NCBI GenBank assembly: GCA_944322755.1
Contig: CALUPY010000028.1
Location: 1 to 33,129 of the forward strand
From: Candidatus Gastranaerophilales bacterium
Lineage (GTDB): Bacteria > Cyanobacteriota > Vampirovibrionia > Gastranaerophilales > Gastranaerophilaceae
Reading direction: 5' to 3'
DNA: 33,129 nucleotides
In this document: in pieces, positions 268-2,789 of the stretch
Position numbering within the stretch: position 1 is the stretch's first letter
Layout of the letters: each line of letters opens with the position of its first letter
Notes under the pieces: generated by a model
Told to the model about the DNA's origin: nothing
The model's input: only the letters and a program-made list of their open reading frames with translations
Databases searched by the model: none
Program-made: the position numbers and the translations under genes

Positions 268-828
268 ATGAACCTTCTCATAGTAAACGGACACAAATAT
301 TATCCATATTCACAAGGCCGGCTGAACATGACTCTGTTCAATGAAATAGTGAGCCTTCTGGAACAGAAGCACAATCTGCAGACCACAATTGTAGAAAACG
401 GATACATAATCGAAGAAGAAATACAAAAATACCAAAACGCCGACGTAATAATCTACCAAACCCCGGTAAACTGGTTTTCCGTTCCCTGGAGCTTAAAGAA
501 ATATTATGATGAAGTATTTATGCACGGCATTTTTTACGGTTCGTCTGAAATATACGGGGCTGGAGGTATGTTTAATGAAAAAAAATATATGTATTCTCTT
601 ACCTGGAACTCACCAGAGGAGGCATTCTTCTGCGGAAAGTTCTATGACGGCAGAAGTGTTGATGACATTTTGATTGCACTGCACAAATTACATGAATACT
701 GCGGTATGAAAAAAATAAGAACGTTTTCTTTGCATGATGTAGTGAAACATCCTGACATACCGGAGTATGTAAAAAAATTAAAAGAACATTTAAATAAATA
801 TATTAATCATCATCAAACGCAGGCATAG
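268..828 (+). CDS. MdaB-like NAD(P)H quinone oxidoreductase (flavodoxin-like fold)
   Basis: A 186-residue soluble protein of the Flavodoxin_2 (NQO1/MdaB) family, expected to bind FAD and to reduce quinones by two electrons, which protects against oxidative stress. The N-terminus MNLLIVNGHKYYPYSQGRLN is the first beta strand and flavin phosphate loop; YQTPVNWFSVPWSLKKYYDEV (residues about 64-84) matches the family core, where MdaB has a similar P-x-x-W-x-x-x-P-W-x-x-K-x-Y-x-D-E-V; YSLTWNSPEEAF (about 109-120) is the MdaB-type loop. The length matches MdaB (about 190). No good Shine-Dalgarno is visible; TAGAGT six bases before the ATG could be a weak -10. Its last 26 bp overlap the convergent gene ending at 803. 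Family assignment is firm; physiological substrate is inferred. Confidence 0.82.
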   Translation: MNLLIVNGHKYYPYSQGRLNMTLFNEIVSLLEQKHNLQTTIVENGYIIEEEIQKYQNADVIIYQTPVNWFSVPWSLKKYYDEVFMHGIFYGSSEIYGAGGMFNEKKYMYSLTWNSPEEAFFCGKFYDGRSVDDILIALHKLHEYCGMKKIRTFSLHDVVKHPDIPEYVKKLKEHLNKYINHHQTQA

Positions 829-1228
829 TTTCAATAATTGTTTTCTTTACCAGCTCCTGCAGACCTATTTTGTCTTTTAATACGGCCTTCATTGCAAAAT
901 TCGTACCCTTAGCTGCAATCATTGCGCAGGATTTATCATCTTCATAGATAGATGTAATCACTGTCAGTTTTCTTGTTCTGCTGTCTCTGACAGATGGTTC
1001 CAATTGAAGTCTGACATTTTTTATTGATGTATCATCAAAAGGACTTTCTATATCAACAAAAACAGGTGAAAAGTTACCGCATTCCGGAATATTAGCTTTT
1101 TTATCAGGGAATGCCTTCTCCAAAAGTTCATCAACAGCCTTGTTAAAAGCCTTATCGACATCTTCCTGCTTTCTTGCACCGAAGGATGTTTTTAAGTTTT
1201 GTCGGATTGAATTAAAACCAATTTCCAT
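803..1228 (-). CDS. Hypothetical protein downstream of Rel-like synthetase
   Basis: A 141-residue acidic protein that I do not recognise. It has no signal peptide, membrane segment or cysteine-rich motif. The first 18 residues (MEIGFNSIRQNLKTSFGA) look like a distinct N-terminal tag, followed by a helical stretch (to about 45), a beta-rich centre (VFVDIESPFDD, VRLQLEP, KLTVITSIYED) and a DDD C-terminus. AGGAG lies nine bases before the ATG. It starts 20 bp after the stop of the RelA/SpoT-like gene on the same strand, so the two are almost certainly cotranscribed. It could be a partner, immunity protein or antitoxin of that enzyme, but nothing in the sequence proves this. Its 3' end overlaps the MdaB gene by 26 bp. 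Confidence 0.7.
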   Translation of the reverse strand: MEIGFNSIRQNLKTSFGARKQEDVDKAFNKAVDELLEKAFPDKKANIPECGNFSPVFVDIESPFDDTSIKNVRLQLEPSVRDSRTRKLTVITSIYEDDKSCAMIAAKGTNFAMKAVLKDKIGLQELVKKTIIETMPAFDDD

Positions 1229-1248
1229 TATATGATGCTCCTATGTTG

Positions 1249-2634
1249 TTAACCAAAAATATCGGGATGTCTTTTTTGTATTTCTTTTACTTCATCTGCC
1301 ATTTTGCAGAGATTTTCAAGACTCAGTATTTCAAATTTTTCATCAATGTAATTTGACAGGACAGGCATAGGGTATTCGGCACCGAGCGCTGTATCTCTGG
1401 TCTTTTTATAAGAATCTTTTATGTATGTCATATAGCTGTTAAAAGTAACCGGATTTTCTTTTAATTCACGAACAAGCCCAAAAACTCCGGCATTTTCATA
1501 GTATTCTTTCAGCTCCTGAACACCTTTGGTAATATCCTTATTTTCCAGAAGGTCATAGAATGTATGCTCACCGTTACATACGATATTCATTTTCCGGCTT
1601 CTCATCTGAAATTCTCCGGGAAATCCGTTTTTGAAAATAATATTCATCTGAAAAGTCGTATATCCGTTGTCTTTTGACTTGTTATAATTTACAAGAGCAG
1701 GAATACGGTGGTCAAGCTCCTGCCAGCCTGCTATTCTTTTATTGTCCACATAAGGCTTTATACCGTCTTTTGAATAGTTGCTTACTCTTGTTACGGTCAA
1801 TTTTTGTCCGCTTATAGCTTTTTCTATTATATCCGTAACTTCTGCGGTTTCCTTTTTTGTCCCCGTAGGCAGAAGCAGCCTGAGACCAATCTGGTCTTTA
1901 ACAAGCTCCTTAGAATTTTTCAGCTCATGTTTTGAGATTGAAAATATTTTTGCGAGTCTTTTCCATTGACCTTCTTCGAGCTGCAGTTTTCCGCTCATAA
2001 TAGAGTCAAAAAATTTCTGCTTATCTGCATCTGACGCCTTTTTGTAATTGCCTTTGAAATGCTCTTTATATAATTCGTCTCTGAATTTATCTACATCTTC
2101 ACGGACATGATTTACAAGTTTATCAAATGTAGATTCTTTGCTTTTTGCACGGTGTTCAAAACAGTCTTTGTATTTTGCAGGGAAAAGGGCTTTGATTTCG
2201 TTCACCGCATCTTTTTCAGCACGTTTAGCATCATCAGCAAGCTTTGTTGCTATAGTTCTCAGCTTATTTACTTTTTTTAATGCCGCAGAAATTACGTTTC
2301 TTTGTAATTTATTATAAAGAAGTTCCCCGCCATCATTGCGGTTTCTGGTAAGAAAGGCAAGAATTTCTTTGTTGAACAGATTCTTTTCACCTAATTCAGT
2401 AAGAGTCTGTGTCAACTGTTTATCAGCAAAAGACAGGAGGTTTTCTGAGATACTCGGTGTTTTTTTTGCAGTCTGGGCAGATTTTGTTTTTTGTACGCCT
2501 GCTATCTCAACAACATCCTGTTTCAGTGTTTGAAGCGGAGATTTTACAACTTCAAATTTTGTGACAGTAGATTTAACAGCTGTTGCTGCAGTTTGAAACA
2601 CTTGTTTTACTTGACTTGGTCCGATTTTTACCAT
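1249..2634 (-). CDS. RelA/SpoT-fold alarmone-synthetase-like protein with N-terminal extension
   Basis: A 461-residue protein whose residues about 155-365 align by eye with the (p)ppGpp synthetase fold. The ATP-site motif is HRAKSKESTFDKL (R162, K164, S168, K172), the metal-binding Asp is D247 in KDQIGLRL, the G-loop is NGYTTFQ (Y325), the second metal ligand is E341 in GEFQMRS, and GEHTFYD (H357, Y360) matches the EHxxxYK end of small alarmone synthetases. There is no HD hydrolase, TGS or ACT domain. Unusual are a lysine-rich helical N-terminus of about 150 residues and about 75 residues between K172 and D247, against roughly 13 in canonical enzymes; the usual H of NGYxSLH is Q329. AAGGAAG precedes the start. 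It heads a two-gene unit with the 141-residue protein. It may make an alarmone, modify another acceptor (as toxic SAS enzymes do), or be inactive. Confidence 0.68.
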   Translation of the reverse strand: MVKIGPSQVKQVFQTAATAVKSTVTKFEVVKSPLQTLKQDVVEIAGVQKTKSAQTAKKTPSISENLLSFADKQLTQTLTELGEKNLFNKEILAFLTRNRNDGGELLYNKLQRNVISAALKKVNKLRTIATKLADDAKRAEKDAVNEIKALFPAKYKDCFEHRAKSKESTFDKLVNHVREDVDKFRDELYKEHFKGNYKKASDADKQKFFDSIMSGKLQLEEGQWKRLAKIFSISKHELKNSKELVKDQIGLRLLLPTGTKKETAEVTDIIEKAISGQKLTVTRVSNYSKDGIKPYVDNKRIAGWQELDHRIPALVNYNKSKDNGYTTFQMNIIFKNGFPGEFQMRSRKMNIVCNGEHTFYDLLENKDITKGVQELKEYYENAGVFGLVRELKENPVTFNSYMTYIKDSYKKTRDTALGAEYPMPVLSNYIDEKFEILSLENLCKMADEVKEIQKRHPDIFG

Positions 2635-2789
2635 TTTTTTTACTTCCTTAGTGCCGTGTAATCACAAGACACAATTATAATACAGTAAAGTTAAAAAGAA
2701 AAATAAATTGACAAAATATCAAATTTAAATACTTTTCTTGAAATAATTTGTTACATATTTCAGAAATTTTAGAATTGCCTGCTGCTTCA

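Follow-up and report, generated by a model that had tools for sequence, protein, structure and literature searches.

A divergent RelA/SpoT-fold protein and its small neighbour in Gastranaerophilales as a candidate toxin and neutraliser pair

Introduction

Alarmone-type synthetases acting as toxins have recently been shown to be widespread. In toxSAS operons, a single SYNTH domain is encoded together with an adjacent small gene, and the antitoxins block the donor or acceptor sites of the enzyme (PMC11782079), CapRel being a known comparator (PMC9712102). Meanwhile, the exported alarmone synthetases (EAS), which include SaEAS, VpEAS and AaEAS, comprise some members with a downstream immunity gene. 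The 2025 survey describing them halted its search early, and neither Cyanobacteria nor Melainabacteria is matched anywhere in its main text (PMC12691689).

Here, we analyzed a stretch of 33,129 nucleotides from a Candidatus Gastranaerophilales bacterium (contig CALUPY010000028.1), referred to as the window, in which a sequence-only reading had raised the possibility of a new RelA/SpoT subfamily of single-domain proteins, acting as alarmone producer or toxin and partnered by the gene downstream. Fold, active site and partnership each found support in the present analysis.

The window protein resembles EAS and the T6SS effector Tas1/Apk1 in having a SYNTH domain without a hydrolase, its model matching SaEAS (8vx3) with a Z of 10.8 and Tas1 (6ox6) with a Z of 7.9, and its gene has a small neighbour where AaEAS and Tas1 have a small immunity gene. 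In contrast to these systems, it carries no Sec signal or known export domain, its genus has none of the three secretion markers searched, its family has a lengthened acceptor loop, and its partner shows no detectable relation to their immunity proteins. The toxSAS systems (FaRel2/ATfaRel2, PhRel, CapRel) likewise combine a compact SYNTH enzyme with an adjacent small gene, and CapRel (7ztb) is the top fold match of the window model (Z 10.9); unlike in toxSAS, however, no relationship of the partner to the pseudo-zinc-finger, Tis1 or Panacea families is detectable, the enzyme family also occurs inside giant proteins, and the locus is vertically inherited.

RelP/RelQ (SAS2/SAS1) share the fold, with a Z of about 10 over 165-179 residues, and the donor-site and catalytic residues, whereas the window protein adds a lineage-specific 75-residue insertion, a His to Gln replacement, a basic N-terminal extension, a partner, and an acceptor loop of 38 residues compared with about 9 (the 9 being counted from the genome's own Rel). 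Canonical long RSH enzymes (Rel) have the same SYNTH catalytic motifs but differ by their HD, TGS and ACT/ZFD regions, which the window protein lacks.

Results

The gene pair and its genomic context

Both ORFs lie on the minus strand where the sequence-only reading had placed them, separated by a gap of 20 bp and each preceded by a Shine-Dalgarno-like sequence (Table 1). In this pair, the enzyme has a pI of 9.3 and the partner a pI of 5.3; opposite charge was nevertheless rejected as general evidence, since the family medians are 6.4 for the enzyme and 8.5 for the partner. The 3' end of the partner gene overlaps by 26 bp (803-828) that of a convergent Flavodoxin_2 gene, the product of which resembles NAD(P)H quinone reductases. 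The Rfam search matched no element, and the promoter scan gave no signal above chance.

All four genomes sampled from the window's genus have the enzyme, and the standalone pair adjoins lptC/lptA, confirmed by Pfam, in genera g1 and g14. A canonical Rel of 740 aa is encoded elsewhere in the window's genome (G000:C32), so the 461-aa protein is not the housekeeping enzyme. PADLOC returned no relevant defence match, and its LeoA match (E=2e-4), confined to the helical region 104-217, was taken as chance helical similarity.

Table 1. Location of the gene pair, of the parts and motifs of the 461-aa protein, and of a recurrent N-terminal motif; positions are those of the window unless a locus is given.
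Feature	Position	Strand	Remark
Divergent RelA/SpoT-fold (SYNTH) protein, 461 aa	1249..2634	(-)	
Small partner gene, 141 aa	803..1228	(-)	predicted alpha-4beta-2alpha
N-terminal extension, residues 1-105	2320..2634	(-)	lysine-rich, low model confidence, fastest evolving part
SYNTH core, residues 118-420	1375..2283	(-)	superposes on RelP/SAS1/SaEAS
Pyrophosphate-donor (ATP) motif R162-x-K164 ... S168 ... K172	2119..2151	(-)	
Helical insertion, residues 173-240	1915..2118	(-)	lineage-specific; absent or short in most relatives
Catalytic D247-QIGL-R252	1879..1896	(-)	D247 and R252 invariant, n=58 sequences
Family motif S-N-Y...P-Y, residues 285-295	1750..1782	(-)	lengthened acceptor-side loop begins here
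G-loop N323-G-Y325-T-T-F-Q329	1648..1668	(-)	Q replaces canonical His
Catalytic E341-F-Q343-M-R345	1600..1614	(-)	
EHxxYD motif, residues 356-361	1552..1569	(-)	
C-terminal helix motif YxxYxxxxYxxxR	1396..1434	(-)	conserved; Y401, Y404, Y409, R413
AAGGAAG, Shine-Dalgarno-like	2643..2649	(-)	8 bp ahead of the start codon of the 461-aa gene; read from sequence
AGGAG, Shine-Dalgarno-like	1238..1242	(-)	ahead of partner gene, within the 20-bp gap; read from sequence
D-T-V-S-F-x-G motif	L070, L071, L194-L204 (N-termini); L089:6417-7001, L177:956-2512, L197:3668-4999		

Fold and active site of the 461-aa protein

No meaningful Pfam or NCBIfam match was obtained for the window protein, which those libraries alone therefore leave nameless, and the Pfam search found no HD, TGS or ACT domain, in agreement with the earlier reading. 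PF04607 was matched in 17 of the 21 aligned relatives (best E=3.6e-8), though the window protein gave no such match, and the relatives' profile retrieved GTP pyrophosphokinases from the PDB (best E=6.6e-6), while a pairwise profile comparison between the window protein and its genome's own Rel was marginal (51 columns, E=0.015). The AlphaFold model (pLDDT 89, pTM 0.82) yielded RSH synthetases as all of its best 13 structural matches in VIA-align (Z 9.2-10.9), with CapRel (10.9), SaEAS (10.8) and RelP (10.7) tied at the head and polymerases, at Z 7.0, as the first unrelated fold. Foldseek alone gave weak scores, with no match at E<0.001, so that the fold claim rests on VIA-align and sequence.

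In the model, R162/K164 sit on the first core strand or next to it, D247 shortly before the following one and E341/Q343 on the last, which is the strand order of SYNTH domains and brings R162/K164, D247 and E341 onto neighbouring strands of one SYNTH-type sheet. Neither of the two outcomes that would have counted against the sequence-only reading, one concerning this placement and the other profile searches for PF04607, was observed. All donor-site and catalytic residues of the SYNTH fold are kept, with R162, K164, K172, D247, Y325, E341 and the EHxxxY end at the positions already read from the sequence; R162 and K164 are retained in 56/56 relatives aligned at those positions, and D247, R252, Y325, E341 and Q343 in 58/58 sequences. 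By sequence and predicted structure, the 461-aa protein is a RelA/SpoT SYNTH fold with an intact active site and a predicted pyrophosphotransferase.

The distance from K172 to D247, given earlier as about 75 residues against about 13 in canonical enzymes, is indeed 75 residues, compared with 13 in the genome's own Rel. Most relatives, however, have 18-28 residues there, so the big insertion is lineage-specific, and stretches of about 60-77 residues are largely restricted to the standalone proteins of two genera of the family, the window's own and one other; the insertion was accordingly dropped as the defining novelty. The loop between SNY and GYT, which had escaped the sequence-only reading, measures at least 38 residues family-wide versus 9 in the own Rel. 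The window protein lacks the His at the end of the G-loop (GYxSLH), which is common in the SYNTH superfamily without defining it, and the Gln found in its place is conserved in 55/58 relatives, with Asn or the canonical His in other clades. Across the aligned sequences, then, the order-wide peculiarity is the lengthened acceptor loop together with Gln replacing the canonical His. In RelSeq, this His presumably lines the GDP site, and acceptor choice in the Q-bearing family may thus differ from that of canonical enzymes.

The lysine-rich N-terminal extension proved to be the least conserved and least confidently modelled part of the protein, and its residues 38-47 (LKQDVVEIAG) are a degenerate form of the N-terminal motif of relatives. 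At the other end, Y401 and Y404 were considered as a CapRel-like autoinhibitory YxxY motif; since their helix belongs to the region superposing on RelP, that role is not claimed.

Distribution and architecture of relatives

SYNTH relatives were found in 83/146 genomes of the order by single-sequence search and in 225/382 sampled genomes of the class by profile search, mostly in metagenome-assembled Candidatus Gastranaerophilales. In the phylum-wide sample, only the window's own family appeared among the matches listed; one distant relative lies on a contig labelled Deltaproteobacteria GWA2_38_16, and none was found in the viral contigs searched. Chance or artefact was rejected as the source of the 461-aa ORF, which is conserved in more than 200 genomes under purifying selection.

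The SYNTH domain constitutes the whole protein, the C-terminus of a 2,517-aa protein or the middle of giants of up to 4,355 aa. The giants contain hydrophobic stretches and match HD, GNAT, calpain-like or LysM domains, in some cases weakly; in these metagenome-assembled genomes, contig ends sometimes interrupt a giant. One giant (L082:8630-13999) has a calpain-family peptidase match at E=6e-6. The second member in the window's genome (G000:C31, L046:10960-18513), the protein of 2,517 aa, combines GNAT with a C-terminal SYNTH domain, is followed by its own 142-aa partner and adjoins dprA. On the Deltaproteobacteria-labelled contig, a 2310-aa protein (L121:1-6933) bears a Ppx/GppA domain (E=2e-23) and a C-terminal SYNTH domain. 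The Ppx/GppA phosphatase trims pppGpp in other bacteria, and this fusion suggests alarmone chemistry within one polypeptide.

A clade of SYNTH proteins of 307-371 aa (L186-L193, L199) has Asn at the G-loop His position and a divergent downstream ORF of 119-126 aa, two of which weakly match the partner profile. A more distant clade with the canonical His has no downstream partner, so the SYNTH fold here is not always neutralised in cis. Besides, 13 of 1226 ORFs bear a D-T-V-S-F-x-G motif within their first 90 residues, in many cases preceded by P-L-x-x; ORF interiors have none. Partner-less SYNTH proteins and unrelated proteins alike carry the motif, which may serve as a tag for sorting or tethering specific to the lineage. 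The first pattern tested, 'FxG' near the N-terminus, was rejected as an export signal, as it is not enriched and occurs also in regulators and partners.

The partner family

From gene neighbourhoods and profile searches, the partner family emerges as the stronger finding of this analysis, a near-obligate neighbour within the clade. A member of this family of about 140 aa (range 137-178 aa) directly follows 83/93 distinct SYNTH relatives in Candidatus Gastranaerophilales, at no more than 100 bp from the SYNTH ORF at 80 loci, and does so alike for standalone, C-terminal and mid-giant SYNTH domains; it is missing at contig ends, in the partner-less clade and from a few distant members. Searched independently, the partner profile matched 68 places in 63/117 genomes, and in the window's genome only the two SYNTH loci.

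Once the coordinates of these places had been compared by hand with those of the SYNTH hits and the retrieved loci, a single true orphan remained. In genome G041, an intact partner ORF (L175:4651-5046), 42% identical to its counterpart in L049, stands among collinear flanking genes that are 61-95% identical to those of G049 and G044 (L048, L049), with the giant SYNTH gene cleanly missing. The small gene kept without the enzyme is as expected for immunity and is not predicted by a chaperone or regulator role, in this one case, which could also be a decaying remnant.

Distances among SYNTH domains and among partners correlate (r=0.90), as vertical descent alone would also produce. More telling, at the level of sequence, is that two very different partners appear to be maintained in one genome: those of the two pairs within the window's genome are 18% identical, and each pair has its own type. 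The predicted partner fold, alpha-4beta-2alpha (pLDDT 84), gave only weak matches in fold searches, with no clear known relative; a Pur-alpha/Whirly-like fold was rejected, its Z of about 6 lying below the tool's meaningful level, and no sequence match was found to the toxSAS antitoxin families pseudo-ZFD, Tis1 and Panacea.

Evolution of the locus

Between genera g1 and g14, identity is 66-76% for LptC, 26-31% for the SYNTH protein and about 28-37% for the partner; the three values rise to 93-96%, 68-76% and 74-84% within g1. dN/dS within g1 is about 0.08-0.2 for the enzyme (0.23-0.42 in the N-terminus, near 0.07-0.14 in the core), 0.04-0.11 for the partner and 0.015-0.05 for lptC, values that are rough because dS is near saturation. 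The low partner values give no sign of positive selection within the genus. By these sequence comparisons, enzyme and partner evolve much faster than the syntenic lptC/lptA, yet under purifying selection, and the window locus is inherited vertically, which sets it apart from most mobile toxin-antitoxin modules.

Discussion

The near-constant small neighbour looks like an antidote, and the enzyme is thus probably a growth-stopping weapon or switch. Our preferred reading, to which we assign a probability of about 0.58, is that the pair consists of a growth-inhibiting pyrophosphotransferase and its cognate neutraliser, akin to toxSAS and exported alarmone synthetases. The enzyme would transfer pyrophosphate, with ATP as donor, onto the 3'-hydroxyl of an acceptor, candidates being guanine or adenine nucleotides and the tRNA CCA end, and this transfer would stop the growth of the cell holding the enzyme. 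The 141-aa protein would bind the SYNTH domain and keep it off in the producer, so that producers, and relatives with the small gene alone, would be protected. Substrate, neutralisation and delivery route are all parts of this reading that we infer.

Two alternatives share the synthetase but assign the small protein or the setting differently, and we hold each of them to be unlikely. The enzyme could be a second alarmone synthetase, non-toxic and functioning as a small alarmone synthetase, with the small protein as a regulator rather than an antidote; an intact active site under purifying selection, vertical inheritance with presence in all four sampled genomes of the genus, relatives without a partner, and the distant giant in which a Ppx/GppA phosphatase domain precedes SYNTH are all in keeping with it. 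However, the genome already has a canonical Rel, the pair diverges much faster than its neighbours, the domain also occurs fused to unrelated enzyme domains in giants as long as 4,355 aa, and an orphan partner is retained without the enzyme.

Equally, an intracellular antiphage toxin-antitoxin module like CapRel/FaRel2, released when the partner senses infection, has a rather small chance of being correct. CapRel shares the tied top rank of the structural matches (Z 10.9), and the arrangement of a single SYNTH domain with an adjacent small gene is that of toxSAS operons (PMC11782079), but PADLOC has no relevant match, viral contigs contain no copy, the partner is unlike any known toxSAS antitoxin detectable here, and the stable chromosomal place beside lptC and the giant fusions are unusual for such modules.

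That the small protein is instead a secretion chaperone, guiding or unfolding an effector SYNTH protein for export without protecting the cell, appears quite improbable: its fixed place directly downstream, its size of 137-178 aa and the hydrophobic stretches of giants would fit, but it tracks the SYNTH domain wherever this is placed in a protein, its profile finds only two SYNTH loci in the own genome, an orphan survives without a client, and none of the three secretion markers was found in the genus.

Within the toxin and neutraliser reading, the giant versions contain hydrophobic stretches and further enzyme domains, which suggests that they are delivered to other cells as effectors with immunity, while the window's standalone form might be a short effector or an intracellular derivative of toxin-antitoxin type. 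We regard an effector and immunity pair as somewhat more likely than a purely intracellular module. The three markers searched in the own genus, T4SS VirB4, contractile sheath and T6SS VipA, were all absent, and the 461-aa protein has no Pfam export domain and, by hydropathy, no obvious signal peptide or transmembrane segment. Vampirovibrio, a cousin lineage, is predicted to use a T4SS (PMC4451040), which makes the negative result for secretion markers informative for this group. A search for Gastranaerophilales and ppGpp found no paper in the literature library covered.

A bolder extension, which we consider doubtful though worth stating, is that Gastranaerophilales possess an order-wide, previously undescribed SYNTH arsenal of gut Melainabacteria, deployed alone and in giant multi-enzyme proteins, with an acceptor site remodelled by the long SNY-PY loop and by His to Gln or Asn in partner-bearing clades, an acceptor other than GDP/GTP, a new immunity fold and a delivery route new to the lineage.

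More than half of the 382 sampled genomes of the class carry this SYNTH domain, with a dedicated partner family foreign to the libraries searched. The window pair is a ready test case for how a SYNTH enzyme gets neutralised, and the natural series of Gln, Asn and His at one G-loop position, with and without a partner, bears on what sets acceptor choice. The pair also opens a way to study the interactions of an uncultured gut group with other cells.
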